From positions 3,038,001-3,102,000 of the forward strand of contig OX328103.1 in NCBI GenBank assembly GCA_946811185.2: 64,000 nt of DNA, in the 5' to 3' direction. The notes under the pieces were generated by a model. It saw only the letters and a list, made by a program, of their open reading frames with translations, was not told the DNA's origin and ran no database searches. The position numbers and the translations under genes were made by a program. This document shows, in pieces, positions 7,988 through 53,159 of this stretch (its first letter is position 1; the number at the start of each line of letters is the position of its first letter). Origin of the DNA: Hippopus hippopus (taxonomy: Eukaryota > Mollusca > Bivalvia > Cardiida > Cardiidae).

Positions 7988-8143
7988 GATATAGATTCCA
8001 GACCGTTGCAGACCAGTGCTTTGGGTCTCCTTCAGAGACTTGTGGATGGCAATGAAAGGGTTCAGAACTTGGTTTTCTGTAAGTTGGACATTCTTTTGTC
8101 CATACAGAACAAACTGACTGAAGTGTTTCAAGTCGTCAAATTG
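7988..8143 (+). CDS. ITPR-like exon 1 (of those visible): RIH-type repeat
   Basis: Acceptor TTAACAG, donor GTATGT, 52 codons, phase 0 at both ends. The peptide runs from DIDSRPLQTS to FQVVKL and includes ERVQNLVFCKLDILL. This resembles the RIH helical-repeat region of IP3 receptors, where a short VQ..MF..LD.LL segment precedes the next helices. The preceding exon lies upstream; I found none between base 1 and here. Confidence 0.5.
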
Positions 8144-9378: not shown

Positions 9379-9620
9379 ATTTTTGCATGTAATATAAATA
9401 CATGCAAGCAGATCACAGGCAGTCAGGTTCGGGCCATAGTCCAATATTTGACAAAGTACACAGAGAGACATGCTGCCATCTTGTTGGATATCCTACACAC
9501 CATTGTAAAACCTGTTAGATATGGGGAACCATTGAGGAGGAATCAGAATCTAGTTATGCGGCATATTGCTGTTATCAAGTCAAAAATAGCCGACCAGTTC
9601 AGCTTAAATGAAAGTTCACT
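9379..9620 (+). CDS. ITPR-like exon 2: RIH domain
   Basis: Acceptor CCTTCCAG, donor GTGAGT; 80 codons plus CT, completed to Leu by the next exon. It encodes INTCKQITGSQVRAIVQYL, then LLDILHTIVKPV and EPLRRNQNLVMRHI. The pattern of a helix, then IVK, then PL.RNQ.LVM matches the RIH fold of IP3 receptors. Confidence 0.5.
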
Positions 9621-10211: not shown

Positions 10212-10293
10212 GATCAGTTTTGCGGCTGAACCAGATGGGTCCAAGGTGACAAACTTTTTTACTATCATTGATCTGATGGCTTCATGTGCCCAG
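10212..10293 (+). CDS. ITPR-like exon 3
   Basis: Acceptor TATTTTAG, donor GTAGGT, 82 bases. The peptide ISFAAEPDGSKVTNFFTIID ends in LMASCAQ; in IP3 receptors the corresponding stretch ends the second RIH block with a CA(E/Q) dipeptide. Phase 2 in, phase 0 out. Confidence 0.5.
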
Positions 10294-10799: not shown

Positions 10800-10984
10800 A
10801 ATGGAAGCAGGACATCCAAGCAGACCTTACAATCTATGATACGGACAAATGTCCTCTTCAAAATTCTGGCACGAGTATCTCACCATAGAATGAGACCTTG
10901 TTTACGATTTCTGACTTACGTCTTCATTGAAGGGGTTGGCGTTGAAGAGGGGGCAGTGGATGATCTATGGCAGAAAAATGAAAT
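10800..10984 (+). CDS. ITPR-like exon 4: helical repeat
   Basis: Acceptor GTTTCACAG. The peptide LQSMIRTNVLFKILARVS continues to CLRFLTYVFIEGVGVEEG and DDLWQKNE. It follows the IP3 receptor layout of a D..R..TH...P..K.AY..FL.....VD.E block ending in MW. The donor is a weak GTACTG after GAAAT; it was chosen because it leaves two bases, matching the next exon. If wrong, only the last codon or two change. Confidence 0.5.
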
Positions 10985-11835: not shown

Positions 11836-11940
11836 AACTTCACTAGATGACTTTTTAAAAAGTATCGTAAGAGATTTCAAGAAGATATCTGACAGAGAAA
11901 AGTTTCCACTTGAGGCTTTACAGAAGATAACCTCTCCAAG
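11836..11940 (+). CDS. ITPR-like exon 5
   Basis: Acceptor TGAATTGCAG, donor GTAGGG, 105 bases. Reads TSLDDFLKSIVRDFKKISDR then EKFPLEALQKITSPR, an amphipathic helix segment corresponding to the W..F..FL.DI region of IP3 receptors. Phase 2 in and out. Confidence 0.5.
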
Positions 11941-12421: not shown

Positions 12422-12503
12422 GACACAGGAAAGCACTACAGATGATGAGGGTTCAGAAGAATCACTTTGTTACATCATGGAAGCTGTTGTGCCTTTTTGT
12501 CAG
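12422..12503 (+). CDS. ITPR-like exon 6
   Basis: Acceptor TTAGTTACAG, donor GTTAGC, 82 bases. The peptide is acidic (ESTTDDEGSEESLCYIM) then EAVVPFCQ. A long repeat (R4) starts 70 bases after the donor. Confidence 0.5.
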
Positions 12504-13010: not shown

Positions 13011-13091
13011 TGTCTTTGTGAATTTGTTCCTGTTGAAAAGATAGCTGACAGCACACAGAAGGAAATCGCCAACATTTGTGAACAGTTTAAG
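13011..13091 (+). CDS. ITPR-like exon 7
   Basis: Acceptor TTTTTCTGCAG, donor GTATGG, 27 codons in phase 0. Encodes CLCEFVPVEKIADSTQKEIA then NICEQFK. No motif beyond helix-forming composition; support comes from the borders and the open frame joining neighbours. Confidence 0.5.
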
Positions 13092-13668: not shown

Positions 13669-13824
13669 GTTTTTCTTGACAAGGCTGTGCCGTATGTGGA
13701 TATCATACCATTGGATTTGAGAAAACGACTTATAGAGTGCCTGAACACAATGAAGTCCTGTGTCAGTTGGAATACAGAAACTCTGGAATTGGAACAGAAG
13801 TTCAACTCGGAGGATATGAGCACT
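13669..13824 (+). CDS. ITPR-like exon 8
   Basis: Acceptor TATTGTAG, donor GTAGGA, 52 codons in phase 0. Encodes VFLDKAVPYVDIIPLDLRKR and then a Trp-containing segment KSCVSWNTETLELEQKF. An M1 element begins within 20 bases of the donor. Confidence 0.5.
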
Positions 13825-17535: not shown

Positions 17536-17662
17536 GATACATCTGACCCAGACAGTGAGCAAGAAATCAATCGACAGTTTCAGACTTTTCTTAGAAATCC
17601 GACGCTTGCATCTGAAGGCTACCAGAAACAGTCAGAAATGCCCACAAAATTGGTGAATAAAA
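17536..17662 (+). CDS. ITPR-like exon 9
   Basis: Acceptor TTTCTCACAG, donor GTAAGT, 127 bases, phase 0 in and 1 out. Reads DTSDPDSEQEINRQFQTFLR then a Lys-rich end. It follows the longest intron of the first half (3.7 kb), which holds a 1.5 kb repeat element. Confidence 0.5.
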
Positions 17663-19671: not shown

Positions 19672-19801
19672 AAAAGCTGGAATGTGCTGATCTGGATTTG
19701 AAACATGACTTCAAGTTGTTGTACCAGCATGTGGTTGTTGATGTGAGGAAATCTAAAGGAGAGGTGTTTGAAATAACGGGAAAAATAGCACAGACATTAC
19801 A
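19672..19801 (+). CDS. ITPR-like exon 10
   Basis: Acceptor TTTCTGCAG. The donor GTAATT at 19802 was chosen because it leaves two bases, fitting exon 11, and avoids an in-frame TAA. Peptide KKLECADLDLKHDFKLLYQH then VFEITGKIAQTL. A donor at GTGTTT (19772) looks tempting but leaves the wrong phase. Confidence 0.5.
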
Positions 19802-20828: not shown

Positions 20829-20978
20829 CCACACAAAAGCAGTTAAACTTCGACATGAGGTTGTGTATGAGAACCCTGGGTTACACAAGAGATACCTGCA
20901 GATATTAAGGATGTTTCTGTTAGAACAGATTGTTCAGCTTCCTACAAACTTTGAGTTATACATCTACAAAAACAGAAG
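20829..20978 (+). CDS. ITPR-like exon 11: helical repeat
   Basis: Acceptor ATAAATTGTAG, donor GTAAAT, 150 bases. Reads HTKAVKLRHEVVYENPGLHK, then RYLQILRMFLLEQIVQLP. Long leucine-rich helices, consistent with the central RIH solenoid. Confidence 0.5.
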
Positions 20979-21830: not shown

Positions 21831-22045
21831 GAATGCAGCCTGTATGAGGTAAAGTAAGAAAAGCTGTTCACAACTAAAAAAAAGTTTTTCACATTTTTTT
21901 TTTTTTTCAGTCCAGAAAGAAAAATTAAAATACTTGCTTTCCTGGATGGGAAAATAAGACAATGAAATGTTCGGAATGGATTATTTGTACCTATTTTTGG
22001 TCGGAAAACTTTATATGGTATCTTGTTATTTTATGTTTTAAACAG

Positions 22046-22205
22046 GCAGCTAGAGAGAGTGAAAAACATACAGACAACCCTTGTAAACAATGGAGCAGTA
22101 GAATGTGCTTTACAAGATCTCTCCCCACATCTGCCTGACTCACATCTGAGAGAATCTCTACAGCTCTTGAACTGTCTGCTGTTTTATGGAAATCAAGAGT
22201 GTCAG
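22046..22205 (+). CDS. ITPR-like exon 12: conserved helical block
   Basis: Acceptor TTTTAAACAG, donor GTATAC, 160 bases. Reads NIQTTLVNNGAVECALQDL, then HLRESLQLLNCLLFYGNQEC. IP3 receptors have here a Q..L...GA..LV.DL block, then ..F.ESI.LAIALL.GGN, so the match to the family is good. Confidence 0.5.
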
Positions 22206-22239
22206 GTATACATTTTATGTTGTTCTTGTCATGGGAGGT

Positions 22240-23128: not shown

Positions 23129-23226
23129 GATGCAATATTCCAGTTTTTGTGTGAAAGACCTGATGTCCTTGTTATTGCAACTTTACAGAGCAGGATAGCT
23201 GGGTTTAGAGACTTTGCCATGGATAT
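23129..23226 (+). CDS. ITPR-like exon 13
   Basis: Acceptor TTTTTCCTGCAG, donor GTAAGT. Encodes DAIFQFLCERPDVLVIATLQ then SRIAGFRDFAMDM. It continues the family pattern (IQ..FF.RL.......F...), with Q.AIFQFL just after the GNQEC of exon 12. Confidence 0.5.
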
Positions 23227-29056: not shown

Positions 29057-29179
29057 AAAAAGAAGGAAAATGGTGAGAAACATAGTATGGATAAAGTGGA
29101 GAGAGAGACTGTAGAAATGACAAGTTTGGTGTTGGAGTTTGTATCAAACATGTGTCAGAATCAGCATTCTCAGCTACAG
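29057..29179 (+). CDS. ITPR-like exon 16: RIH-associated domain, start
   Basis: Acceptor CTCATTGCAG, donor GTAGGT, 41 codons. Ends in LVLEFVSNMCQNQHSQLQ, matching the family motif ..LRFLQLLCENHN..LQN that opens the RIH-associated domain. The N of LQN is the first residue of exon 17. Confidence 0.5.
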
Positions 29180-29900: not shown

Positions 29901-30127
29901 CAGCTACCTTGTCCACATATTTTGTAAAAATACTGACACAGACATTTTGATCGAATGTTACTTCTCTATTTCAGAATTACTTCAGGGTTCAGTAACCAGC
30001 CGCCCTGTCTACAGACTTTATAAATATGTCAACAGACATTTTGATTGAAAGTTACTTCTCCTCTATTTCAGAATTACTTCAGGGTGCAGAACCCAGCTAC
30101 CCTGTCTACAGACTTACAGATTTCAAA
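29899..30127 (+). pseudogene. Tandem relics of exon 17
   Basis: The segment from the acceptor and start of exon 17 (TATTTCAGAATTACTTCAG) occurs at 29968 and 30065 as well as at 30301, with a 97-base period between the first two. The copy from 29975 hits a stop after NYFRVQ; the copy from 30072 stays open (NYFRVQNPATLSTDLQISK). An older piece at 29899 matches the middle of the exon. Confidence 0.5.
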
Positions 30128-30165
30128 GGTTTTTCTTGGGGGAAAAAATATCTCCTTATTGGATA

Positions 30166-30227
30166 GTGTAGATCCAAGATCAGACTGCATGTTCTGTGCA
30201 GTCTGATCTTGATCTACACTGTCCCCA
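30166..30227. repeat. M3 core between exon 17 relics and exon 17
   Basis: AGTGTAGATCCAAGATCAG and complement CTGATCTTGATCTACACTG. GGGGTTAACACAG at 30259 marks its end. Confidence 0.5.
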
Positions 30228-30306: not shown

Positions 30307-30456
30307 AATTACTTCAGAGTTCAGTACCCAGCTACCCTGTCTACAGACTTTGTGCATGTGCTGACAGATCTGATAGATACAGTTCATACACAGATAAACA
30401 CCCACACAGTGACTGTCCTCACACAAACATATGATTGCCTTGCTCAAATTGTCTCA
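30307..30456 (+). CDS. ITPR-like exon 17: RIH-associated domain
   Basis: Acceptor TTCCATTTCAG, donor GTAACT, 50 codons. Reads NYFRVQYPATLSTDFVHVLT then DLIDTVHTQI and LTQTYDCLAQIVS. NYFR corresponds to NFLR of the family. Two relics of its start lie just upstream (see 29899-30127). Confidence 0.5.
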
Positions 30457-32326: not shown

Positions 32327-32428
32327 GGTAATGCTGACAACAAAGTAGCTGTATTAGGTACTAGAGTATGTGAACAGACAAACTTCATGTTATTTATGGA
32401 CATGTACAGAGACTGCACAGCAGAGCAG
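32327..32428 (+). CDS. ITPR-like exon 18
   Basis: Acceptor TTTTACTTCAG, donor GTAGGT, 34 codons. Reads GNADNKVAVLGTRVCEQTNF then MLFMDMYRDCTAEQ. The joined QIVSGNADNK replaces the family's Y.QGPC..NQ loop. Starts 37 bases after the end of a pogo-like element. Confidence 0.5.
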
Positions 32429-38465: not shown

Positions 38466-38584
38466 ATATACTAAAGACAGAAGAGGACAAAGATGTATAT
38501 AACTCATATTCGACATCCACAAGATCTGTTGAACTACTGAAAGATGATACAGTTCATAAAGTGTTCTTCAGAGTGAAAGATAAG
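38466..38584 (+). CDS. ITPR-like exon 22
   Basis: Acceptor TTTCTATGGCAG, donor GTGGTA (weak), 119 bases. Reads ILKTEEDKDVYNSYSTSTRS then VELLKDDTVHKVFFRVKDK. An M2 element starts 13 bases after the donor. The last 23 codons are repeated at 39009-39077. Confidence 0.5.
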
Positions 38585-38597
38585 GTGGTAGTTAAAA

Positions 38598-39332: not shown

Positions 39333-39447
39333 TATATGGCTTTATTTATCCTGAAATAGACAGTGATTGAAAACACTGAGGGAAAAGGAGTTAATTATTA
39401 ATAGCTGTATAGCTGTTTATCTTTTCAAACAAGTAAGAACCCTGCAC

Positions 39448-39660
39448 CGCACAGTGCCGACTTTAATGACCATGAGAAAGACAGCTTTTGAAAACATTGG
39501 GAGAGAAGAAGAAAATGCTGATAAGCAGCATTTTCTCCTTTTTCCACAATGTTTTCTTCCCATTCAAAGACCTATTCAGTCAGTAGAAACACATTTAATT
39601 TTTGTCTGCAAATACTTTCAATTTGGAGCAGTCTAAAACTATGTTGTATGGTAAAGAGTA
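39448..39660 (-). repeat. M1 element
   Basis: ACCCTGCACCGCACAGTGCC to GGTAAAGAGTAAA; palindrome GCTGATAAGCAGC. Confidence 0.5.
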
Positions 39661-39663
39661 AAT

Positions 39664-40071
39664 TCTTTACCAAACAACAAAATTTTAGACTTGTCCATAC
39701 TTGAAAGGATTTGCAGACATTTCCAGCATTTTCTCCTTTTCAAACAATGTTTTCAAAAGCCTTCTCCTTCAGGGTCATTGCTCGGTAGGGTAGCTTAGTG
39801 GTTAGCTTAACTGACTCGTGACCTAGTGGTTGCGGGTTCAATAGAACTTTCTTTCTGGCAATTGTTCGCCTCTCACCTTTGATGCATGTGGAAAAAGCAG
39901 TCAGTGGCTTTGAAAGAAATTTGTGTCACTACTGGTGTGAGCAAGCCAGGAAATGTATGCATAGGTGCACTGGCCTCCATGATATCACCTAAACTTTGAA
40001 AACAGGTTGAAACTTCAATACAAATAAATAGATAAACCTTTCGGGTCATTAAAACTTGTGGTAAAGGGCTA
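39664..40071 (+). repeat. M1 element split by a SINE
   Basis: M1 runs to 39779 and resumes at 40051; the interior of the left part is also deleted (palindrome arm missing). Confidence 0.5.
39780..40042 (+). repeat. tRNA-derived SINE (type S1)
   Basis: GGGTAGCTTAGTGGTTAGC and GGTTGCGGGTTCAATAG boxes; target duplication GGGTCATT (39772-39779, 40043-40050); AT-rich tail. Confidence 0.5.
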
Positions 40072-40086
40072 AGCTTTCTTTATCAG

Positions 40087-40256
40087 CATGCCTACAGTGA
40101 TGACATTAAAGAAAGAATCAAGTACGATATAGACAGATCCTCACCTTCACTAAAGATACAAGATTTTATGAAATGGTCCAGTGAAACAACAGATTATGCT
40201 AGACATAGGTGGCATGTATGCAGATCTGGAGTTGGAAAACTTCTCGTCTATTCATG
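40087..40256 (+). CDS. ITPR-like exon 23: run-in to the membrane domain
   Basis: Acceptor TCTTTATCAG, donor GTATTA, 170 bases. Encodes SLKIQDFMKWSSETTDYARH then RWHVCRSGVGKLLVYS. It matches the family's D....MNW...L....VL stretch before S1. Confidence 0.5.
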
Positions 40257-40451
40257 GTATTATAACACTTACTGACTTCTTTCTTCAATATCATTTTTAA
40301 GTAAAGTTTTCAGAATCTTTTTTTTTTTAGCATTTTTATACCCCCGCAAAACGAATGTTTTTGTTCTAGTTCAGATTCTCTATAATTTTGATGCTAGGTT
40401 GCTCTGCAGAAAAAACTACCTCTAGAGTTTTAATTTTTTCCCCCATATAAT

Positions 40452-40680
40452 AATTCTTTACCAAACGATAAAATTTTAGGCACACCCAAATTGAAGGTAT
40501 TTGCAGCCAACAAATTCAGTGTTGCTGAAATGATGATTTCTATCTTTGATAGGGTAGAAAACATTGTGGGAAAAGGAGAAAATGCTGGTAACCAGCATTT
40601 TCTCCTTCTCCCACAGTGTTTTCAGAAGGCTTTTTCCTCAGGGTCATTCAAACTTGGGATTGTGAGGTATAGGATTATGA
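40452..40680 (+). repeat. M1 element
   Basis: TTCTTTACCAAACGATAAAA, intact palindrome, end GAGGTATAGGATTAT. Confidence 0.5.
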
Positions 40681-40928
40681 GTTCTGATGGTGTTAATCAT
40701 AGTATTGACTCTCAGTAATCTTTTCCACACAGTCCAAAGTGTTGGAATGCTTGTTACAGTGTTTGTCTTTATATCTCAGAAGAGATTTGAAATAGGTCGT
40801 GTTTGGTCTATAAGGCCCAGGTGAGCAACTGAGGGCCATCACGGCCCTCTTTTTGTTGTGTGGTAAATGGTTATTATGAAATATTTGCATACTTGTGAAT
40901 TGCTATTGGTTAATATGCTATTATTCAG

Positions 40929-41021
40929 GTTACCCTTCAACTATATGATGTTGACACTGACATTGGCCATTCTGATAATGATTGGGATTGACTATGACGG
41001 TGGTGGAAACGGATCAAAAAG
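40929..41021 (+). CDS. ITPR-like exon 24: transmembrane S1
   Basis: Acceptor GCTATTATTCAG, donor GTGAAC, 93 bases. LPFNYMMLTLTLAILIMIGI is a clear membrane helix (S1), followed by the polar lumenal DYDGGGNGSKR. Confidence 0.5.
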
Positions 41022-41069
41022 GTGAACTACCAATCGTTTGTACCTTAAATTTTAGGCTAATTTTTTTTA

Positions 41070-41290
41070 TCCTATACCACATGCAATAAATTTATACTAG
41101 TCCAAATTGAAAACATTTACAGGTGACAAAATAAATGTGACTGAAAAGTTGAGATTTGATTTGGGAAGGATAGAAAACATTGCGGGAAAAGGAGAAAATG
41201 CTGGTTACCAGCATTTTCTCCTTTTCCCACACTGTTTTCAGAAGGCTTCTTTCTCAGGGTCCTTAAAAGTCGGGATTGTTTGGTAAAGGG
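41070..41290 (+). repeat. M1 element
   Basis: CCTATACCACATGCAATAAA to GGTAAAGGG; perfect palindrome at 41188-41231. Confidence 0.5.
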
Positions 41291-41394
41291 TTGAGCAAGA
41301 ACTGAAATAATGTGATTCCTTTTCTATTATGAATTCACGCATTAAACTATGATGCAAGTGGAAATGGACAACAAAAGCACTGCATGCTGTGGCA

Positions 41395-41650
41395 AACACT
41401 TGGCTGCAGTTGCTGTTTGGAAAAATTTTAAGTTAAAAAAAGGGGCATATTTTGATGGTTACCTTTCCCCTGATATATGGGTTTGATAGGTAACAACTAG
41501 TCCAAGTTTGAAGTAAATATCTTCAGTAATGATAGAGATATTTATAGAATGTCAAAGTTTTTGCACCATGCCACAGACGACGCTATTGACGATGCCAGGG
41601 ACATGAAAATACCTTGATGTTTTCTTCAAAAACAGCCGAGCTAAAATTGG
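41395..41650 (-). repeat. R4 repeat, reverse
   Basis: The complement reads AGCTCGGCTGTTTTTGAAGA and later TGCCCCTTTTTTTAACTT; the only clear reverse copy. Confidence 0.5.
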
Positions 41651-41734
41651 TGAATTTGTTCTTCAGATTATGCAAACAGAGAAACGCTGTCTCCAATTGT
41701 CACAGTTTTTTCTTATGTATTCATGAATTAACCT

Positions 41735-42235
41735 AATACAGAGTTTTAACAGCCCTGAAGGAGAAGCTTTTAAAGAACATTTTGGGAAAGGCAGGAAATG
41801 CTGGTAACCAGCATTTTCTCCTTTTCCCACTATATTTTTACCGTTCCAAAGACAAGTCCAACTATCTTAGCAATATCTGATTTGTCCTTTGCATTTGTTT
41901 TGGATTTGGAGAAGTCCATAATTTTGTTGTTTTATAAAGAGTTAAAGTTCAGATATAAACAGAGTCTGGTAACTTTACTGTTTACTCAGTTTACTGTTTT
42001 CAAAAGCCTTCTTCTAAAGGTTATTAACTCTTTACCAAATGACAAAATTTTAGACTGGTCTAAATTAAAAGCATTTGCAGATGACAAACTAAATGTTGCA
42101 TAAATTGTTTTCTTTTAAAGGATAGAAAACATTGTGGGAAAAGGACCAAGTGTGGCATTGGCATTTTTTCCTTTGTTTTTCATAAGTCATTTTACTTTGG
42201 GTCGTCACAGATTTGGATTGCAGTTTAATGGATTA
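41735..42235. repeat. Two M1 elements
   Basis: 41735-41943 (reverse) and about 42027-42235 (forward, palindrome lost). A further start fragment at 42503-42541 follows exon 25. Confidence 0.5.
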
Positions 42236-42322
42236 AACTTGAGATCATTTGGTAATACGCTAATGTAAATAATGAATTTTGCAGAATGGATAATTCTACC
42301 TTTTTTGCTCTTATATTTTCAG

Positions 42323-42472
42323 ATATGAGGCAGATCGTAGTTTCCGTGTTGGAATTGCAGTGTATGCTCTGGGGGGTGTCCACAATTTTTTGTCCATAGT
42401 TATTTTCATATGCTTTATCACTCTGAACTCGCCCCAATTCTATGGGTTGATGCATCTGTATCAATTTACCAG
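42323..42472 (+). CDS. ITPR-like exon 25: transmembrane S2
   Basis: Acceptor CTTATATTTTCAG, donor GTATGC, 150 bases. After YEADRSFR comes a hydrophobic span (GVHNFLSIVIFICFITLN), taken as S2, then the polar SPQFYGLMHLYQFTR. Confidence 0.5.
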
Positions 42473-42802
42473 GTATGCTATCTTTATATAATAAATTGGT
42501 TATCTCTCCAACAAATGACAAAATTTTAGACTTGTCCAAATTCATCTTCCTTCTATTGACGGACAGTGGAGAGCAGTTTTTCCTATGGTCCGATGGCTTA
42601 CTTTATTCTAGATTTTACTTCTTCATGTCTTATTTGACACAGTAATTAGAGTATGATATAGGAATACATGTACAAATACTTTGGCTAAAGAAAGAATTAT
42701 TAGAAACAAGGAAATTTTCCTTTTGCCACTATGCTTTCAAATGTGGTCTGTGGCAAAGATGAAATAAAGCTTTTCTGTGACATTGTTAATAGGATAACTA
42801 TA

Positions 42803-44124
42803 TGAGGGTTGTTTGATATGTAATGTGTATTGTACGATATCTCAAAAGTATTCGACTCAAATAGTGAAATGAACATTACATCCCTTCAAAGTATTCTCCG
42901 CGGTTTGAAATACATAATTTCAATCTCTGAATCCATTTCTGAAATGCGTCACGGTACGCTGATTTAGGTAGACCTCTGAGGCACTGACTGATGTCTGAGC
43001 CAAGGGCTTGTCAGGACTTGTAATGACGACCAGATAAGAACTTTTTAAGTTTTGGAAAAAGGAAAAAGTCGCATGGGGCTAGATCTGGAGAGTATGGTGG
43101 GTGTGGCAAGACGGTAACCTTGTCCGACTTCAAAAATTGCTTCACAAGCTCAGATGTATGTGATGGAGCATTATCATGAAGTAGACGAACATGCCTAAAT
43201 CCTGACACAGGGCGTCGTTTAAGATAATATTTCTTGACCTTTTTTAGTATAACATCTTGGTAATACCGACCTGTAACACTTTTGCCCTTCGGCACTGGAA
43301 TTTGTACGGCTATACCATCACATGAGAAGAATATGCAATAAAGAACCTTCTTTGTGCTTGTGCTTCTACAGGCCTTCTACCGTGTTTAGTTAGCCATATT
43401 TTGTTTCCAATTTTTCTTACTGGTTCGAAATAGTGAACCCATGTTTTGTCACCAGTAACAATGTTTGCAAATTGTCTTTGATTGAATTTGGGAAACATTT
43501 TGAGCAATTGCTTAGCGGTTTGTACTCGTACCCGTTTTTGCACATCTGTCAATATATGCGGTATCCATCTGGCAGAAATCTTTCCTACTTTCAAAATACG
43601 CTTCAAAATGAAATGCACCCGCGATAGCGATATGCCAACAGCATTGGCAATATCACGAATCGTGTATCTGCCGTCACTTTCAATTATTTCCCTGACTTTT
43701 GAGACATTTGCCTTGCCTGTTAAAGTCACAGGTCAGCCAGATTTTGCTGCATCTTTGACAGACTCTGTGCCAGTCAGAAATTTCTTTCTCCAACTGCGAA
43801 CGGTCTCATAAGATACCTTATCAGACCCATAAACTTCCCCAATTCAGTAAAAATCTGCATTACCGAATGACCGGGTTTTGTGCGAACTTTTATATAAGCT
43901 CTAATTTCTTCAATATTCCGTTTCCCAACGATTTTTACAACATTGGTCAACGACTAGCACTATTGAAATGACTATAAGTTTAAAACTATGTGGAGCTGAA
44001 GGCTCGTGTTTATGCTGTTGGAAAGGTATTGAATAGAGCTATTCAAGCGTATCATCATCCACGAAATCGTGCAAAGCGTTATCGAGCTGTGGTACAATAC
44101 ACATTACATATCGAATAGCCCTCG
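42803..44124 (-). mobile_element. Full-length mariner, inactive
   Basis: 1322 bases with ends TGAGGGTTGTTTGATATGTA and, inverted, CGAGGGCTATTCGATATGTA, TA on both sides. Whole-length mariner (about 1.3 kb) with a broken transposase. Sits in the intron between exons 25 and 26. Confidence 0.5.
42876..43960 (-). pseudogene. Mariner transposase, broken
   Basis: Minus-strand pieces: HTH region (SYETVRSWRKKFLTGTES), second HTH (TIRDIANAVGISLSRVHFIL), catalytic GDKTWVHYFEP, then LLHDNAPSHTS and YSPDLAPCDFF. The last two aspartates are 34 residues apart, the D34D form. Damage: one lost base in the HTH, a TGA where SGRP is expected, a frame slip near 43310, and a TGA after RHYKS. Ends at the TAA at 42876-42878. 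Confidence 0.5.
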
Positions 44125-44187
44125 TAGTTGTTGACAGAGACAGAATTATTAAGATCTGATAGAAACTAAAAATATTTACATTTCCAG

Positions 44188-44299
44188 TGCATTCGTAAAA
44201 GGAAAGCCAAATGACAACAGGCTGAAGGAGTTTGAGATGCAGAAAAAAAGCTCCAGGTTACAGATTAATGCATACGGACCAAAAATGATCTACTACACT
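44188..44299 (+). CDS. ITPR-like exon 26: S2-S3 linker
   Basis: Acceptor TACATTTCCAG, donor GTAAGT, 112 bases. Charged, cytosolic-type peptide KGKPNDNRLKEFEMQKKSSR ending GPKMIYYT at the edge of S3. Acceptor lies 63 bases past a complete mariner element. Confidence 0.5.
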
Positions 44300-44334
44300 G
44301 TAAGTTAGCACACAGTTCCCTTATTTCCTTCAAC

Positions 44335-44662
44335 TCTTTACCACACAATCCCATGTTTTAAATGACCTGACAGGGAAGGCTTTTGAAAACATTGTGAAAA
44401 AAGGAGAAAATGCTGGTAACCAGCATTTTCTCCTTTTCCCACAATGTTTTCTACCCTCTCAAAGACATATCCAAACATTCATATTGGAAGCAATTATTGT
44501 AGAGGAAAAAATAATTGTGGCTCAAATGATGAGATTTGTCTCGAAAGGTGGAAAACATAGAGGGAAAAGGGAAAAAAAAAATGCCGTATATTGGCATTTT
44601 CTTACTTTTGCCATTTTATTTTCAGGAACAGTAATAAAACAGGAATGTTGGCTAAAGGGTTG
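44335..44662. repeat. M1 composite
   Basis: A reverse copy to about 44480 runs into a forward half from 44515 to 44660, like the composite at 4372. Confidence 0.5.
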
Positions 44663-44872
44663 AAACTAAGTCATTACTGGTTATGCCTCTATAGTAGACT
44701 GTCTTTGAAAGCATTAAGGGTAAAGAAGGAATTGATTGTTCCAACTTTTTCCTCCTTTTTCCTGCAATTTTTTCCATACTTTTCGACTATTGGCTGGTTA
44801 CAGAAATATCATTTGGCCTTGTTTAATTTCTCATGTTCCATAGGTGGCTAAGTACCTCAGAGCAAAGTTTAA

Positions 44873-45092
44873 CTCTTTACCACACAACAAAAATGTGGAC
44901 TTGTCCAAACTGAAAACGTTAGCAGACGACAATGTATATTTGGTTCAAATGATAGAATTTGTCGTATATGTGGTGGAAAACATTGTGGGAAAAGGAGAAA
45001 ATGCTGGTAATCAGCATTTTCTCCTTTTCCCAAATGTTTTCAAAAGACTTTTTTCTCAGGGTTGTTAAACCTCGGGATTGTGTGGTAAAGGG
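44873..45092 (+). repeat. M1 element
   Basis: 220 bases with TTAA at 44869 and 45093; palindrome ATGCTGGTAATCAGCAT. Confidence 0.5.
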
Positions 45093-45151
45093 TTAAAAAA
45101 AATACAACAGTCTCTTCCTAGTTTCTTAGACATGATTTTTGTCTCTTTCAG

Positions 45152-45275
45152 TTATTTTTGATTGCATCTATATGTGGCACAGCTTTTCATGGGTATACAT
45201 TTGCCTTGTGTTTGTTACAAATTGTGGAACTTAACAGATACTTGAAGAGGATTTGCAGTGTTATCTTACATAATG
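45152..45275 (+). CDS. ITPR-like exon 27: transmembrane S3 and S4
   Basis: Acceptor TGTCTCTTTCAG, donor GTAGGT, 124 bases. LFLIASICGTAFHGYTFALC is S3, then LLQIVELNRYLKRICSVILH is S4, with the HNG that begins the S4-S5 turn. HNGK at this point is shared by IP3 and ryanodine receptors. Confidence 0.5.
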
Positions 45276-45489
45276 GTAGGTAGTTAGTTTTTATCACAAA
45301 ACCACCTTTGTTTTCAATGTAATACAGCCATTACAAATTTTGTTGTCTGAAAAACTTTTTAAGCAAGCAATTAATGCAGTATTTGGTCAACACTCTGTAA
45401 TCATACGCCTCATTTCTTGACATTGTTGACCCGAATTTCTTTGTGAAATTAAAAGTCAAAATTGGTGATCATGATAAAGGTAAAAATTT

Positions 45490-46611
45490 ATTATCTTCAA
45501 ACCCCTGTCACACCAGAGCGGCGATCCCATGGCGTCCAAGAAAAAATGCAGAACGCCGAGGTGCACGCAGTACGATCGCAAGCATCGTCACAGCAACGCA
45601 ATGGCATCACGAGTAAACTCGTTGGGATCATCTAGGACGCCGAGGGACGGTGCGCATTTTGAGCATGCACAAAACAAACGCTGTCGCTCGTCATTTTGAG
45701 AAGAGCGCAGTGGGATCACCAGAAGGTCGTCTTAGCGGCACAGTAAGGTCTTCCACAATGCAATGGGAGCTCCGCCGGGCACACAGAGGTCGCAGTGCAA
45801 ACGCTATGGTTGTCGGTGGCACTTGCACAGCGATTGTACCACAGGCTTTGAGATTACACCGTGTCTCTGCTGTGCCTATACGGCGCATCAGCGGCGCTTA
45901 TACAGCGAGTCAACGGCGCTGACACAGAGTGTCATTTATTTCACTGTGCTCTTAAAACAACACCTCTAAGCTCCAACGGCGATCAGTGCGCTTGTAAGGA
46001 GCTTCTACAGTGTCCATCACTCTTTCTCTGACAAAAACGAACATATAGTAGACGAAATATGCAAAATAACATTCAATTTACCATGGCTGATGTACGCTAG
46101 CAAGCCGGGCTAGTAATGGTTGAGGAGTTAACAGTGGTTGACTTGCTTCTGTTTGAGAGGGTTGGGGTTTATGTCTTGTTTTTTCCCCTTTTCTTTTTAC
46201 GAGCATTGTTTTATTCTCCGTTGACTTTTTGAGACCACAGCAAAGAAACAATTGATGAATAAATGTGTATACATACAATTCGTTTTAAGAGATTGTTCAT
46301 TGTCACGCCTTCAGCTTAGTGTGAGCGCCTTGTGAACGCCTGGTGCACGTAGTATGAGCACCGTGAAAGTGCAGAGCACGCAGTAGTAGTGCCATGAGAG
46401 AGCAGAGAATTGCCAAGAAGAACTCGGTAGGAACGCGATAACGCACCATAGGAGCTCCGTAGCAATGCCTTGGTCGTGGTGAAAACCCTGTGACATCTCC
46501 GTCTTCGTGAAAAATATCCGCTTTTTCCTGCGATCTCATGGTGCTCTGGGAAATTAAACAACGCCGTCCCAACGCAGTGGAAACGCCGTATAGTGTGATA
46601 AGGGCTTTAGA
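45490..46611. mobile_element. GC- and CpG-rich element with inverted ends
   Basis: Left CCCCTGTCACACCAGAGCGG and right (inverted) GCCCTTATCACACTATACGG. Much richer in GC and CpG than its surroundings, especially 45500-45950 and 46310-46590. Frames of 60-100 codons overlap on both strands, none with a known domain. Likely a DNA transposon; superfamily not assigned. Confidence 0.5.
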
Positions 46612-47007
46612 TTCAAAACAAAATCATTATATGCAAGTTTCTTTGGAACTTTTTTTTTCATTTGTAACGTACCTACCAAAGAAGCATATAGGCTTCAGTA
46701 CATATGTGTAGGCCTATGTTTTAATGTGTCATCAACTATAATTCTTGAGATACAGTTATGTGATTTAAAAGAAAAAATCTGATATTTCATCTCAAATGCC
46801 AGCTCATGTCAAGTCCTATTTATCTCATATTTATACTTTGGTTTAGTTCGAATAATGCAATGATAGTGCATTCTAATAGAAGGAGTAAGAGTGGTGGATG
46901 CGGCCTGGGGGCAGAAAAAGAGTATGTTTCTTTCCCAAAGATGGTAAAAATAAGCTTGTGAAATGAAAAACAGTAGAGGAGTGAACCTCTAGTTCTAATT
47001 TTAGGGC

Positions 47008-47292
47008 TGAGCCCCGGTAACTCAGTAGTGTAGTGTGCAGGACTTGAGAACAGGGGGTTCGGCCAATTTCTGTCCAAGGATTGATGATAATCATTGTGAC
47101 AGGATTCATTCTTCTCCCACTGCTGACCATCGTTTTGACGATGGTTATGTGGGAAAGCAGCCAGTGACTTGCAAAAAAAATTGTGCAGAGCACTGGTAAA
47201 AGAGACTCAAGGAAAGCATGGATAGGTGCATTGGCCACCGCTATATTACCGAAATAATGTTGAAACGGCATTAAACACCATACAATCAGTCT
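47008..47292 (+). repeat. SINE (type S2)
   Basis: GCCCCGGTAACTCAGTAGTG, AAGGATTGATGATAATCATT, GGAAAGCAGCCAGTGACTTG, 3' end GGCATTAAACACCATAC. Confidence 0.5.
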
Positions 47293-47333
47293 AATTTTAG
47301 GGAACTTGAAGTTGGATTAACACTAACGCTAAA

Positions 47334-47600
47334 TCTTTACCAGACAACAATATGTTGGACTCATCCATATTGATGGCAATTGCAGACAAAAAACAAAATG
47401 CAGCTCAAATGATTAATCTGTGAAAAAGTAGAAAACATTGTGGGAAAAGAAGAAAATGCTGGTAAGCAGCATTTTCTTCTTTTCCCACAATGCTTTCTAC
47501 CCTATTAAAGACAAAAATCATCATTTGAGCTACATTTAATTTGTTGTCTGCAGATTCTTTCATTTCGGTAAAGTCCAAAAACTTGTTGTTTTTATAGGGT
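47334..47600. repeat. M1 composite
   Basis: Forward start CTTTACCAGACAACAATATG merges into a reverse end CGGTAAAGTCCAAAAACTTG; palindrome ATGCTGGTAAGCAGCAT. Confidence 0.5.
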
Positions 47601-47671
47601 TTCAGTTGCACTGTACACTTTATAGATTAAATATGCATCTCATTTACATCAACCATATTGAGAACAAAAAT

Positions 47672-47948
47672 ATTGATGAGTCACTCTCTGGCAAAAAGGA
47701 TTTAAAGCGTCTCTGTGATGCATTGTTGCATTGTACCAAGCAAGAATCACACAATTATGGACCGATCAGTAAAATCCATTTTGTATAACAACAGACTGGA
47801 TCGTGACGTACACTAATCCTTTTACATGAAAAACATTGACCAATAGCAAAAAGTTTCAACCCATGACAGCCTGCGCAGACTGCGCAAGCTTACATGGATC
47901 AATATGCTTTGCAGATGCATTAAATGCCCTTTTCATAAAGCATGGCTC
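47672..47948. repeat. M2 element
   Basis: GAGTCACTCTCTGGCAAAAA to CATAAAGCATGGCTCAC, ending about 55 bases before exon 28. Confidence 0.5.
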
Positions 47949-48004
47949 ACTGTTTTTCTTCACTTATTCAACAACTTTGTCTCTGACTATTGACATTCTT
48001 TCAG

Positions 48005-48183
48005 GGAAATACCTTGGGATGACAATCTTGCTAGTGCTGATTATACTGTATATGTATGCTATTGGAGCCTTTCTATTTTTTCGAGAAGTATACATTCAAC
48101 AGGCCAATGGTCACTACTGTAATTCCATGCCACAGTGTTTTGTTACGATATTACATCATGGTTTAGTTGGAACAGCCTATGAG
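48005..48183 (+). CDS. ITPR-like exon 28: S5 and pore helix, altered filter
   Basis: Acceptor GACATTCTTTCAG, donor GTAATC, 179 bases. GMTILLVLIILYMYAIGAFL is S5. The lumenal loop has YCNSMPQCF, matching the paired cysteines before the pore helix in the family (CETLLMC in IP3 receptors). The pore helix VTILHHGL is well conserved, but the next residues are VGTAYE where the family has (R)(S/A)GGGxGD. Glycines and Asp of the selectivity filter are missing. The donor is sound and no other donor restores the motif. Confidence 0.5.
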
Positions 48184-48482
48184 GTAATCGCAGGTTTCAT
48201 ACAATACTAAATATTTTATCCACAGCAAAATACTGATTACCTGTATCAAAGCCTTGATGGCAGCAGTCGTTGATGAAACCCATGAACGAATACATGTACA
48301 AAAGCAAGGTGTTGAAAGGAATATAAAAGCTTAATAAAGGAAAACCTTTTCCCTATGCAGGCACCTTTGATGCATGGGTAATCAAAGGCTCCTGAAATAG
48401 TGGTGCAAATGGACAAATTACTTCATTGGTTTATCTGTCACTCCTTTTTCCTTTTTTTATGATATTTGTCCGACTGTTTAAC

Positions 48483-48900
48483 TCTTTACCAACAATCTGG
48501 TGTTTTAATAATTTTGATTTTTTTACCTTTTGAAAACGTTGTGGAAAAAATGCCAGTCTCCAGTTTCCTACACTGTTTTCTACTCTATCAAAGACAAATT
48601 CTTCAACAGTTTGAGCTATATTGAATTTAGTGCCTTCTATTGCTTTGAATTTGAACAGCCGGGCCGGGTAGCTCAGTGGTTAGTGTATCTGAATCATGAC
48701 CTGGTTGTTGCAAGTTTGATATTCGTCTGAGGTAAACTTTCTTTGTGGTGAACTTTTGCCTCTCAACTCCTATGCATATGAGAAAAGTAGTACATGGCTT
48801 GGAAAGAAAGTTGTGTTAGTACTGGTGTGAGAAAGCCAGGAAATATATGCATAGGTGTACTGACCACTGTATTAGTCCAAAATTTTGTAGTCTAATAAAG
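48483..48900 (-). repeat. M1 element split by a SINE
   Basis: M1 reads to TTGAATTTGAACAG (48657) and resumes at TCCAAAATTTTGTAG (48875). Palindrome partly lost. Confidence 0.5.
48658..48872 (+). repeat. tRNA-derived SINE (type S1), 3' trimmed
   Basis: GCCGGGTAGCTCAGTGGTTA and TTGCAAGTTTGATATTCG boxes; stops at GGTGTACTGACCACTG. Target duplication not clear. Confidence 0.5.
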
Positions 48901-49081
48901 ACGTAGTGCAATATCTCTGTATTATTGACTATATTCATGGATTTTTGATCTAGACATTTTTGTTTCTGCCAATCAGGGGCCTAGTTTTGAAACTAACTAG
49001 CCAAGTCATCTTTAGAATTGCTTTGTTTACATGGATTTATTATATAGGATCAAACTTGATGATAGCTATACACTGTTTCAG

Positions 49082-49231
49082 ATGTTTGATCACGACACAA
49101 CCTCGTCATTCACTGATGCAGTACGGATAGGACTGTACAATATCTCTTTCTTTGTTGTCATCACGATACTGGCTCTGTATGTGGTCCTGGCCTGCCTTGT
49201 TGATGGTTTCTTGTGTCTCAAGCAAAAAATG
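49082..49231 (+). CDS. ITPR-like exon 29: transmembrane S6
   Basis: Acceptor TACACTGTTTCAG, donor GTATGT, 50 codons. Reads MFDHDTTSSFTDAVRIGLYN then S6 (ISFFVVITILALYVVLACLV) and DGFLCLKQKM. The VDGF matches IDTF / IDAF at the inner gate of the family. With this start the pore-to-S6 spacing is 23 residues against about 24 in IP3 receptors, supporting the chosen border. Confidence 0.5.
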
Positions 49232-49246
49232 GTATGTATTTAGTTT

Positions 49247-49728
49247 TACCCTTAAAGTGCTTTCACTGATATAGTTGCCTTTGCGTCCAGTGTAGATCAA
49301 GATCAGACTGCGCAAAACATGCAGTCATACTTTTATCTAAACTGTCTGTTTCGCTTAACTCTTTACCAATTGACAAAACTATAGACTTGTTCAAATTCAA
49401 AGCATTTGCAAAAGACATATTATTAGATGTAGCTAAAATGGTGATTTCTGTCTTTGATAGGATTGAAAACATTGCGGGAAAAGGAGTAATGCTGGTTAAA
49501 GCTAAACCTGAGAAGCACCAGTCATTGTTTTTAACCCTTAGAGCACCTTTTACAACTGAAGTTACTGTAGATAATAGTGTAGATTAAGATCAGACTGCTT
49601 GTTTTGTGCAGTCTGATCTTGAAACTACACTTTCCACAATCTTTTTAGATATTTTGAAAGATACAACAATTAGGTCTTTTCTCTGACTGTAAAAGTCCAT
49701 TGTGCTTATCTGGAGCTGTAAGGGTTAA
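49247..49728. repeat. M3 - M1 - M3 chain
   Basis: M3 at 49247-49354, M1 at 49359-49500 (3' cut), M3 at 49535-49724 with TTAA at both sides (49531, 49725). Confidence 0.5.
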
Positions 49729-49965
49729 CTCTTTACCAAACAACAAAATTTTGACCTGTCTGAATTGAAAGTATCAACAGACGATAACTCAAATGTTTAA
49801 CAAATTATGAAATCTGTCTTTGAAAGGATATAAAACATTGTGGGAAAAAGAGAAAATGCTGGAAACCAGCATTTTCTCCATTTCTTGCAGTGTTTTCCTA
49901 AGCTCTTCTCCTTGGGGGTGGGGGGGGGGGGGTGGGTCATAAAAACTCGGAATTGTAAGGCAAAG
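49729..49965 (+). repeat. M1 element next to M3
   Basis: Starts directly after the TTAA shared with the M3 copy; contains (G)n at 49919-49931. Confidence 0.5.
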
Positions 49966-50019
49966 TGTTAAGTCTGTACCAAATAAAAAATCTAACACTT
50001 GACCTAACCAAAGACATTT

Positions 50020-50281
50020 TATCCATGCTCTGACAAAAAGGCGTTTAATGCATCTCCATGATGCATTATAGCAAGCAAGTCATCACATAACTGTGGATCC
50101 ATAAAGTCTATTTTGTCTAACAACAGACCGAGTCCTGAGGTAGAATGGTCCTTTGACATGAAGGAAATTTACAAATAGCAAAAGTTTTGATGCATGTCAG
50201 CCTGCATGGACTGTGCAGGGTGACGTGGGTCAATACTTTTCGCAGATGCATAAATTTGCTTTTCACAAAGCTTGGCTCATT
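50020..50281. repeat. M2 element
   Basis: CCATGCTCTGACAAAAAGGC to CACAAAGCTTGGCTCA; inner CAGCCTGCATGG / GTGCAGGGTGACGTGG. Confidence 0.5.
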
Positions 50282-50401
50282 GGCAGATGTCAAATAAGAA
50301 TTGCTTTTACGGTGGTATTTGTCCTTGGAAGGTAGATAGTATTCTGCAAAAAGATGCAAGTGCTGGTTAACTGCAATGTTTTCAGAAACCTCTTCTTTTA
50401 A

Positions 50402-51100
50402 CCCTTTACCACACAATCCCGACTTTTAACGACCCTGAGATAGAGGCCTTTTGAAAACATTGTGGGAAAAGGAGAAAATGCTGGTAACCAGCATTTTCTC
50501 CTTTTCCCACACTGCTTTATACTATATCAAAGATAGATTTCCTCATTTGGGTCACATTTAAATTGCTATCTGCAGTTGCTTTAAATTTGGACAAGTCTCC
50601 ATTTTTCTCATGTGGTAAAGGGTTTACATTGTAAAAGCAAAGAACTATCCAGTAAAGAGTTTAACCCTTTACCACACAACATTTTTTTGTCAGTTATCCA
50701 TATTTGAAGCATTTGTAGAGGAGAAACTAAAAATGGCTCAAATGATGAGATTTTTTTTGAAAGGGTAGAAAACATTGTGGGAAAGGGAGAAAATGCTGGT
50801 TACCAGCATTTTCTCCTTTTCCCACAATGTTTTCAAAAGCTTCCTTCCTCAGGGTCGTTAAAATTCGGGATTGTGTGGTAAAGGGTTAACTATTTACCAA
50901 ATAACAAAATTTTAGACTTGGCTAATCTGAAAGAATTTACATATGACAAGTTTAGCGCAGCTTAAATGATAAATTTTCCTTTGAAGAGGTAGAAAACTTT
51001 GTGGGAAAGGGAGAAAATGCTGGTTACTATGATTTTCTTTTTTTTTCCACAATGTTTTCAAAAGCTGTTTTTATCAGAGTTGCTTAAAGTCAGCATTGTG
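50402..51100. repeat. Three M1 elements in a row
   Basis: 50402-50622 (reverse, 221 bases), 50665-50885 (forward, 221), 50890-51100 (forward). The last two share the TTAA at 50886-50889. Confidence 0.5.
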
Positions 51101-51233
51101 TGGTGTTTTCAACAGCCCTCTTCATCAGGGTTGTTAAATATTTGGACTATGTGATAGTTCTCTTTTTGTGGGGAATTAAATTGCCAAAATACAATAATTG
51201 TGATGTCTTGAGAGATTTTTTATTCATTTACAG

Positions 51234-51311
51234 CGTCATGCAAAGGAAGATTTTCGAGCAGTATGCTTTATATGTGGCCGTCCAAATGCTGATTTCAGTA
51301 AGGCAGGAAAG
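51234..51311 (+). CDS. ITPR-like exon 30: zinc motif, CFICG half
   Basis: Acceptor TTCATTTACAG, donor GTAAAT, 26 codons. Reads RHAKEDFRAVCFICGRPNAD then FSKAGK. CxxC is the cysteine half of the Cys2-His2 zinc site that joins the cytosolic end of S6 to the C-terminal domain in IP3 and ryanodine receptors. Confidence 0.5.
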
Positions 51312-51329
51312 GTAAATAAAATTTTTAAA

Positions 51330-51540
51330 ACTCTTTACATGCCAACAGAATTTTAGATTTGTCCAAATTGAAAGCATTTGCAGACAAATTTTAAAATATG
51401 GCAAAGATCAAGGTATTTATCTTTAAAAGAGTAGAAAACATTGTGGGAAAAGGAGCTGGATACCAGCATTTTTTCCTTTTCTCACATTTTCAAAAGGCTT
51501 CTTCCTCAGGGTCTGTAAAACTTGGGATTGTGTGGTTAAT
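51330..51540 (+). repeat. M1 element, shortened
   Basis: CTCTTTACATGCCAACAGAA to GTGTGGTTAATTAA; one palindrome arm lost (GAGCTGGATACCAGC). Confidence 0.5.
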
Positions 51541-51569
51541 TAATTGTCAAAAGGTTAGGTCACATTATT

Positions 51570-52045
51570 AGCTCTGTTGTTTTTGCAGAAAATATCTAGG
51601 TATTCTCCTAGCCCTATTGTCATCTGTGTTTTTACCTTTATCTTTCATAAAGGGAATCTATACAATAAAGGCAGGTAATTCAGATATTTTTGACCCAGTT
51701 ATGCTCCTTTTTCAACGTAATTTTTCTTCGAAAATGTAACTGCAGCCAGGGTTTGCACTTGCATGCCCTGTTTTTAGCTTGGCTGTATTTTAAGAAAATA
51801 TAGAGTTGTTGTCATAGCCTTGGCGTTGGTATTGTCTGCATTGTCATCTGCGTCTTCATGCAAAAACTTTGATATCTTGTAATGTCTCTGTCATTACTGT
51901 AGATATTTACTTGAGACTTAGAGTAGTTGTTGCATATTAAAAAGGAAACTTGTACAACAGAGCAGGTAACTATCAAAATGTTTTTGACATAGTTATGCCC
52001 CTTTATCAACCTAAATTTTCACTAAAAGCTTCTGCAGCTGAGTGC
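51570..52045 (+). repeat. Two R4 repeats in tandem
   Basis: 51570-51775 (middle deleted) and 51772-52045. The second ends 20 bases before exon 31 begins. Confidence 0.5.
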
Positions 52046-52065
52046 TTGTTCTTTTTTTTCCATAG

Positions 52066-52185
52066 GGATTTGAGGAGCATGTAAAGAGAGAACACAACCT
52101 GTGGGATTACATCTACTTCTTTATACATCTAGACACAACACCTACAAGAGAATACTCTGCATTAGAGAACTATGTGTATGGACAG
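52066..52185 (+). CDS. ITPR-like exon 31: zinc motif, histidine half
   Basis: Acceptor TTTTTTCCATAG, donor GTAAAC, 40 codons. GFEEHVKREHNLWDYIYFFI provides the two histidines, spaced as in the family (H-x4-H), and the following EYSALENYVYGQ parallels EYTGPESYVAEM. Strongest single family match in the window. It directly follows an R4 repeat. Confidence 0.5.
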
Positions 52186-52249
52186 GTAAACTTAATACTT
52201 GTCAAATAACAAAGAAATATATTCAAGTGCCTTGATTACTAGTTTTGTG

Positions 52250-52565
52250 AGACCAGCCCACATAGCTCAATAGGTAAAGTGTAGGACTCGTGAACATGAT
52301 GTTTCGAGTCACTTGAGGGTGTGGGTTAGATCCCCACGGCTGGCCATCTAAAATTACTAATAGTCTTTCGGATGAGACGTTAAACCGAGGTCCTGTGTGA
52401 CGGTGCTATACAGCGAGCACGTAAAAGAACCAGGCGTAACTTAAGATGGGTTTCGTCCTGTATCTGCACTATCCCCCGTAACAATACTAACAGCCTTCAG
52501 GGGGCATCGCCCATATGGACAACCAGTGGCGATGATAAATAAACAGAAATTCAATCAAACTAGTT
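52250..52565 (+). repeat. tRNA-derived SINE (type S4)
   Basis: CCACATAGCTCAATAGGTA and GGGTTAGATCCCCACGG boxes, then CGGATGAGACGTTAAACCGA and CCTTCAGGGGGCATCGCCC. ACTAGTTTTGTG occurs on both sides (52238-52249, 52559-52570), a probable target duplication. Confidence 0.5.
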
Positions 52566-52604
52566 TTGTGGTGAGGGCCTAGTTGCATGCATTTTCGATG
52601 CACG

Positions 52605-52695
52605 CCCAGGTAGCTCAGTGGTTAGTGCATCAGACTCGTGACCTGGTGGTTGCGAGGTTGCTACCCGGTTGAGGCAAACTGTCTTTCCAACACAT
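52605..52695 (+). repeat. SINE fragment (type S1, tRNA head)
   Basis: GCCCAGGTAGCTCAGTGGTT and GTTGCTACCCGGTTGAGGC; cut after the head. Confidence 0.5.
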
Positions 52696-52799
52696 TCTTC
52701 AGAGGGAAAAAAACGGCAAGATGAGATAACATTCATTTTGGGGGTAGATATTGTAAATTGATTAAAATAGACTCTTTCACTTTATTGATCACCGAGTTT

Positions 52800-53015
52800 T
52801 AACTCTTTACCACATGACAAAATTTTAGCCTTGCCCAATTCTTAAAGCATTTGCAATCAACAAATTAAATGTGGTTGAAATTATGATAATTGTCACAAAA
52901 TCTCATGGGAAAAGGAGAAAATGCTGGTTACCAGCATTTTCTCCTTTACCCACAAGGTTTTCAAAAGGCTATTCCCTCTGGATCGTTAAAACGAGGGATT
53001 GTGTGGTAAAGGGTA
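52800..53015 (+). repeat. M1 element
   Basis: CTCTTTACCACATGACAAAA to GTGGTAAAGGGTAAAA; ends 25 bases before exon 32. Confidence 0.5.
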
Positions 53016-53039
53016 AAACCATATTACTCTTGTTTGCAG

Positions 53040-53159
53040 ATGAAGGAGGGAAAATATGACTTCTTGCCAATCAACAGGGCAATATGTTTGGAGGCGGCAG
53101 ATAAAGCTGAGAGGATGAAGTTGTCTGATAAGAAGGCCGGAGACAGTGAAGAAAAAGGG
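53040..53159 (+). CDS. ITPR-like exon 32: C-terminal domain
   Basis: Acceptor CTTGTTTGCAG, donor GTAAAT, 40 codons. MKEGKYDFLPINRAICLEAA parallels the family's M..ERNLDWFPRMRAMSL. The rest (DKAERMKLSDKKAGDSEEKG) is charged. Confidence 0.5.

Follow-up and report, generated by a model that had tools for sequence, protein, structure and literature searches.

A Strongly Diverged IP3R-B Gene in Hippopus hippopus, from a Subfamily That Mostly Lacks the GGGxGD Filter

Gene Structure and Family Identity

The window is a 64-kb stretch of Hippopus hippopus contig OX328103.1 (C8:3038001-3102000 in our analysis of the 1.07-Gb genome), and its + strand carries roughly the C-terminal two thirds of a channel gene whose MIR and IP3-core-like N-terminal exons reach ~39.6 kb upstream of the window. 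Exon candidates were predicted from codon usage, with eight open frames from other channel loci in this genome as the training set, and were then supported by homologs, giving the following features:

7988..8131, + strand, armadillo/RIH-region exon (ends approximate); open, cag acceptor, 6 of 13 query proteins match
9379..9620, + strand, exon of the RRNQNLVM region; splice sites, 13 of 13 query proteins match
10212..10293, + strand, exon; phase fits the preceding exon, within the Dreissena alignment
10830..10961, + strand, exon region (ends approximate); 1 of 13 query proteins, Dreissena alignment
11836..11940, + strand, exon; splice sites, Dreissena alignment
12422..12503, + strand, exon; phase fits, 3 of 13 query proteins
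13011..13091, + strand, exon; phase fits, Dreissena alignment
13669..13824, + strand, exon candidate (3' end approximate); Dreissena alignment
17536..17662, + strand, exon candidate; Dreissena alignment
19672..19801, + strand, exon; phase fits, Dreissena alignment
20829..20978, + strand, exon; 2 of 13 query proteins, Dreissena alignment
22044..22208, + strand, exon region RQLERVKNIQ (ends approximate); 11 of 13 query proteins
23129..23226, + strand, exon candidate; at the edge of the Dreissena alignment
29057..29179, + strand, exon candidate before RIH_assoc; Dreissena alignment
30307..30456, + strand, RIH_assoc exon; PF08454, 33.7 bits against a cut-off of 28.5
32327..32428, + strand, exon; query-protein match, Dreissena alignment
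38466..38584, + strand, exon ahead of S1, RSVELLKDDTVHKVFFRVKDK; query-protein match, in-phase splice
40087..40256, + strand, pre-S1 exon; query-protein match, in-phase splice
40929..41021, + strand, S1 exon; in-phase splice, aligned to Dreissena P0124
42323..42472, + strand, S2 exon; query-protein match, in-phase splice
44188..44299, + strand, exon leading into S3; in-phase splice, Dreissena alignment
45152..45275, + strand, exon of S3-S4 and the S4-S5 linker; query-protein match, in-phase splice
48005..48183, + strand, S5, C-x5-C lumenal loop, pore helix and VGTAYE (last six codons); PDB match, in phase, donor placed as in the A1, A2, and B paralogs
49082..49231, + strand, S6 exon with altered gate region LYVVLACLVDGF; PDB match, in-phase splice, alignment
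51234..51311, + strand, CFICG half of the C-terminal zinc finger; PDB match, query-protein match, in-phase splice
52066..52185, + strand, H-x4-H half of the zinc finger and C-terminal domain (EYSALENY); 13 of 13 query proteins, best 62 bits, in phase
53040..53159, + strand, C-terminal domain exon, the last modeled; query-protein match, in-phase splice

The last 11 exons in this list (38466-53159) form the channel domain and splice in phase to 471 open residues, running from before S1 to the C-terminal domain. When compared with the PDB, the spliced pore and zinc-finger exon matched a ryanodine receptor chain at 7.8e-12 (entries named RyR2 from 8.6e-12) and IP3R1 at 7.2e-11, E-values that place the family resemblance beyond chance. 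The succession of S5, pore, and S6 followed by a CFIC...H-x4-H C-terminal domain is a feature of the IP3R/RyR superfamily; with the PDB and RIH_assoc matches it bears out the family assignment, an IP3/ryanodine receptor-type channel, of an earlier note made from the sequence. The Pfam Ion_trans match fell below its cut-off (20.9 vs. 25 bits), and GGGxGD, commonly cited as the superfamily signature, is absent from the window gene. No SPRY or RYR repeats were found in the relatives P0059 and P0124, the model of the window gene itself being partial. By summed exon matches, the best relatives are the Mercenaria clade-B protein P0059 (32 of 33 named regions) and Mactra P0058 (31 of 33), both at a lenient E-value of 50; identity to these proteins is ~34-35% across 702-705 residues, while Mercenaria and Mactra B are 85% identical to each other and the remaining clade-B mollusc pairs compared reach 57-63%.

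The locus also contains repeats and duplicates. Partial tandem copies lie at 38950-39140 (of exon 38466-38584) and at 30072-30167 (of exon 30307-30456), the latter resembling its source exon only across the first ~15 codons. On the - strand, 43011-43732, within the intron that separates the S2 exon from the exon leading into S3, holds a transposase remnant (DDE_3 1.2e-7, HTH_24 1.7e-6), which we take to be mariner-type. The palindrome GGAGAAAATGCTGGTNACCAGCATTTTCTCC recurs in 42 copies (up to 3 mismatches) over the whole window, where none are expected by chance, as a MITE-like repeat.

Pore, S6, and IP3 Site

The pore exon (48005-48183; acceptor cag, donor gtaatc) ends in ...CNSMPQCFVTILHHGLVGTAYE, the S6 exon (49082-49231; acceptor cag, donor gtatgt) starts with MFDHDTTSSF, and the two join in phase 0, so that the spliced junction reads ...CFVTILHHGLVGTAYE and then MFDHD... 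S5, the paired-cysteine loop (C-x5-C), the pore helix VTILHHGL, S6, and VDGF all lie in open frames that splice in phase, which confirms what had been read there before. VGTAYE does stand in place of GGGxGD, as had also been proposed: the splice is in frame, and searching all six unspliced frames of the 64-kb window for G[GAS]GxG[DE] gave no match. Such a search would miss a motif split across an intron, but the pore junction itself was read directly. At the DNA level, GG.GG.GG...GG occurs neither in the pore intron (48184-49081) nor in 47600-48004, and its sole match in 49232-51233 is a poly-G run. The filter VGTAYE is absent from the relatives listed. The earlier claim of about normal pore-to-S6 spacing stands in part: S6 is in register, but the filter segment aligns two residues shorter than in members with GGGxG[DE], as it does in other non-GGG rows of the alignment.

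S6 is altered as well. The sequence LNIIFGIIVDTF of the relatives has become LYVVLACLVDGF in the window gene, and positions that are near-invariant among the rows shown have changed from N to Y, F to L, G to A, and T to G.

At the IP3 site, FLRTTGRQ of IP3R1 aligns to HLRL--RP of the window gene and YRK to SRK, and RQK..R is kept. RTTGR and YRK, which we take to be IP3-contacting residues of the canonical receptor and which characterize IP3R-A, are thus both missing from the window gene. Among the IP3R-B rows shown, 16 extend over this site, the window gene included, and all of them lack TTG.

Paralogs in the Hippopus Genome

Searching the genome with the RIH_assoc profile gave 16 matches at E up to 10, which were classed by best match:

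C7, canonical IP3R; 2 RIH_assoc matches, filter GGGIGD
C8:16.17 Mb, IP3R-B A1; 1 RIH_assoc match, pore exon end IGDMFE
C8:14.51 Mb, IP3R-B A2; 2 RIH_assoc matches, pore exon end IGDLFE
C15:12.1 Mb, slow clade B; 1 RIH_assoc match, VEGPYT at both pore exons
C2, RyR in two places; 6 RIH_assoc matches
C8:3038001-3102000, window gene; 1 RIH_assoc match
L025, L027, and L028, RIH_assoc matches without clear kin

The count of canonical genes that had been suggested as a check thus comes to at least one canonical IP3R and two RyR copies, beside at least three slower IP3R-B genes and the window gene. A genome search with the window pore (14 matches) supplied the filter sequences of the paralogs. In four IP3R-B pore exons (A1, A2, and B twice), a GT stands immediately behind the filter, in the position matching the one behind VGTAYE; a donor right behind the filters of the paralogs makes a missed exon in the window gene very unlikely. 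With a GT donor immediately behind the non-GGG filters of the three other IP3R-B genes found in the genome, the view that the filter was replaced and not skipped holds.

Several features of these paralogs are worth recording. The slow clade-B gene has tandem S5-pore exons ~3 kb apart (C15:12059634-12059816 and 12062588-12062767; L032 and L033), each bounded by AG and GT and terminating in VEGPYT, which are candidate mutually exclusive pore exons. In the A2 gene, a stop-bearing RIH_assoc exon match (C8:14514555-14514704, L017) lies 215 bp upstream of the intact one. The two RyR copies (C2:30.477-30.521 Mb and 30.538-30.582 Mb) are highly similar and ~61 kb apart, reflecting either a recent tandem duplication or a haplotype left unmerged in the assembly.

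Phylogeny and Constraint

In a FastTree phylogeny with the root set on canonical IP3Rs, support is 1.0 for the union of RyR with IP3R-B and 0.997 for the IP3R-B clade; 48 of the 48 IP3R-B-like proteins placed on it fell inside this clade, and the window gene groups with IP3R-B, neither with canonical IP3Rs nor with RyR. Under this simple model the gene came out basal among animal IP3R-B outside sponges (fork support 0.009), a position taken as long-branch attraction. Before a Dreissena relative was added, the tree did not fix its place in clade B, and neither a mollusc B nor a bivalve B that leaves out the window gene was rejected by the AU test (p 0.397 and 0.317). A mixture-model tree (quick search) places it inside heterodont clade B with an SH-aLRT of 100, and together with Dreissena P0124 at 96. 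Its end branch measures 3.23 changes per column vs. 0.05-0.06 for Mercenaria and Mactra B.

A third search, made with the C-terminal half, yielded a single protein at E up to 0.01, the ITPR2-like P0124 of Dreissena polymorpha (1489 aa); the method needs shared 5-residue words (its first run missed P0058 and P0059), and orthologs elsewhere may be missed. P0124 is the probable ortholog of the window gene, with 40% identity over 467 residues of the channel region and a shared CFICGR; it differs in its filter, VESPYA, and is less diverged, its C-terminal half being 51-52% identical to Mercenaria and Mactra B. S6 carries N and F in 93 of 96 proteins with readable S6 and N and L in two others, while Y and L, the residues of the window gene at these positions, recur in P0124 only. 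The altered S6 in both the window copy and its Dreissena relative suggests changed gating.

Constraint was examined at columns identical in ten clade-B rows, split by conservation across the whole family. The window gene retains 152 of 217 such columns (70%) where the family is >=95% conserved, 124 of 263 (47%) at 70-95%, and 43 of 125 (34%) under 70%; at columns varying within clade B, it matches the clade majority in 275 of 1013. As judged from these alignments, purifying selection on the gene is still visible.

Filter Loss across IP3R-B

The IP3R-B name reportedly originates with Alzayady et al. in 2015, and Capsaspora IP3R-B is said to have bound no IP3 and released no Ca2+. The first homology search returned 50 proteins, the best being oyster and other mollusc 'ITPR2/3-like' sequences of ~2600 residues; in a motif listing of these 50, GGGxGD occurs in P0050 only, and two Oscarella proteins read GGGLGE. 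A profile search extended the set to 114 listed proteins. From the 124 proteins collected, 11 RyR and 7 others (P0050, P0107-P0111, and P0123) were set aside, leaving 106 IP3R-B-like proteins, isoforms and near-copies included, of which 48 were placed by the tree and the remainder by similarity. The pore is covered in 96 and not reached in 10. Of the 96, GGGxG[DE] is missing in 91 and kept in 5 (P0018, P0036, P0083, P0096, and P0101). By record names, the 91 come from molluscs, nemerteans, annelids, brachiopods, hemichordates, an acoel, Trichoplax, and sponges, and the bilaterian, placozoan, and demosponge rows of the alignments shown have a filter segment that falls two residues short of GGGxG[DE].

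These counts contradict the framing of the filter loss, in the earlier note, as peculiar to the window gene, and they indicate that the loss is very old. The window gene stands apart as an accelerated heterodont copy whose filter and S6 have changed further.

The replacement filter is itself conserved within one large IP3R-B group. Fifty proteins (44 different segments) match a C-x5-C...R-[YF]-G pattern, and in this R[YF]G group the seven columns after that G, L-I-G-D-[LM]-F-[ED], have entropies of 0.31-1.42 bits, compared with 2.14-3.48 for the next eight. Conservation of GLIGD[LM]F[ED] suggests a pore in use with another selectivity, for a group that does not include clade B, to which the window gene belongs; in the slow clade-B rows shown, the acidic filter position is occupied by T or N. 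Among the open-access papers searched, we found no report of the missing GGGxGD of IP3R-B; the founding paper of the subfamily lies outside that coverage and may mention it.

Proposed Function and Alternatives

We propose that the window gene is an accelerated heterodont clade-B IP3R-B duplicate, and its sequence somewhat favors an IP3-independent ER channel or channel subunit with changed permeation. The protein would form a tetramer in the ER membrane and open in response to calcium or a partner, not IP3. Cations would pass a shorter filter lined by backbone and a side-chain ring, here GTAYE, whose glutamate aligns to the acidic residue of GGGxG[DE]; calcium selectivity would be different and probably weaker. 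It may also act as a modulatory subunit beside the slower clade-B channel. Several observations count against a channel with changed permeation: the 3.23 end branch, the altered S6 residues, and the precedent of IP3R2 G2498S, a filter glycine mutant for which abolished conduction is reported (PMC7939385). In addition, the filter is not conserved in Dreissena, and the data on a conserved replacement come from the R[YF]G group, whereas the window gene belongs to clade B. The loosened S6 and filter of the window copy make a modulatory or nonconducting role possible.

The main competitor, which we consider less probable though still a serious one, is a pore-dead subunit or scaffold that sits in the ER and joins or imitates receptors without conducting, acting through contacts (e.g., in store-operated entry or in tethering the ER to mitochondria) or by dampening the activity of the slower clade-B channel. 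Filter and S6 are relaxed in the window copy while the pre-S1 and zinc-finger exons stay recognizable, and pore-dead IP3R1 D2550A is reported still to rescue SOCE (PMC10406432) and still to support ER-mitochondria contacts (PMC6700175). On the other hand, conservation of the replaced filter in the R[YF]G group does not resemble a dead pore, the window gene retains S5, C-x5-C, and the pore helix, and G2498S is reported not to be dominant negative in heterotetramers (PMC7939385). A decaying copy, a pseudogene in progress, is improbable: the branch is very long, the gene holds partial exon duplicates, and openness alone is weak evidence because exon pieces were chosen partly for it, but 11 consecutive exons run in phase with no stop and match relatives throughout, and clade-B-identical columns are kept twice as often where the family is conserved as where it is not. 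That a missed exon, an alternative splice site, or an assembly fault conceals a normal GGGxGD can practically be dismissed, given its absence from the six unspliced frames of the window, the donor placed as in the paralogs, and 91 of 96 pore-covering relatives equally without it.

For the subfamily, we offer a more tentative proposal, which we hold at slightly less than even: IP3R-B may be an old class of animal ER channels with its own filter, GLIGD[LM]F[ED] or a related sequence, which arose when a GGGLGE-like ancestral filter lost glycines and became two residues shorter. The class would represent a further permeation type of the superfamily, one that IP3 does not open and that vertebrates, fly, and worm lack, and heterodonts would have added to it a fast-evolving copy with a reworked gate.

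GGGxGD is treated as a hallmark of calcium-release channels, and one filter change can kill a human-type receptor (PMC7939385). IP3R-B, mostly without it, has been kept in sponges, a placozoan, an acoel, hemichordates, annelids, nemerteans, brachiopods, and molluscs; either these giant proteins conduct by other means or they serve an old function for which a standard pore is not required. The window gene is a strongly diverged new member of a known subfamily, and the subfamily-wide lack of the hallmark filter is the more interesting result. A leech study describes IP3RB as understudied, present in the bilaterian ancestor, lost toward vertebrates, and missing from fly and worm; it reports leech ip3rb2 enriched in touch neurons and terms IP3RB physiology to be determined, and its main text contains no word starting with 'selectivity' or 'pore' (PMC7992859). 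That an IP3R-B member marks leech touch neurons makes the question testable in existing systems.

Comparison with Known Systems

A scallop PyRyR-like protein was set aside as a counterpart, as it is reported to carry SPRY and RYR domains (PMC13362341). IP3R-B resembles the window gene in its tree position as sister of RyR, in the loss of TTG from the IP3 site and of GGGxGD, and, among the other IP3R-B genes of this genome, in the place of the donor behind the filter; the window gene differs in a branch many times longer than those of slow clade-B genes, in VGTAYE, and in its altered S6. The canonical IP3R (IP3R-A) shares the overall architecture, the six-helix channel, and the CFIC...H-x4-H C-terminal domain, but unlike the window gene it has GGGxGD and the RTTGR and YRK of the IP3 site. 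RyR is the nearest other branch on the tree, and the window pore scores slightly higher against RyR than against IP3R1; it differs in having GGGIGD and a length of ~5000 residues.
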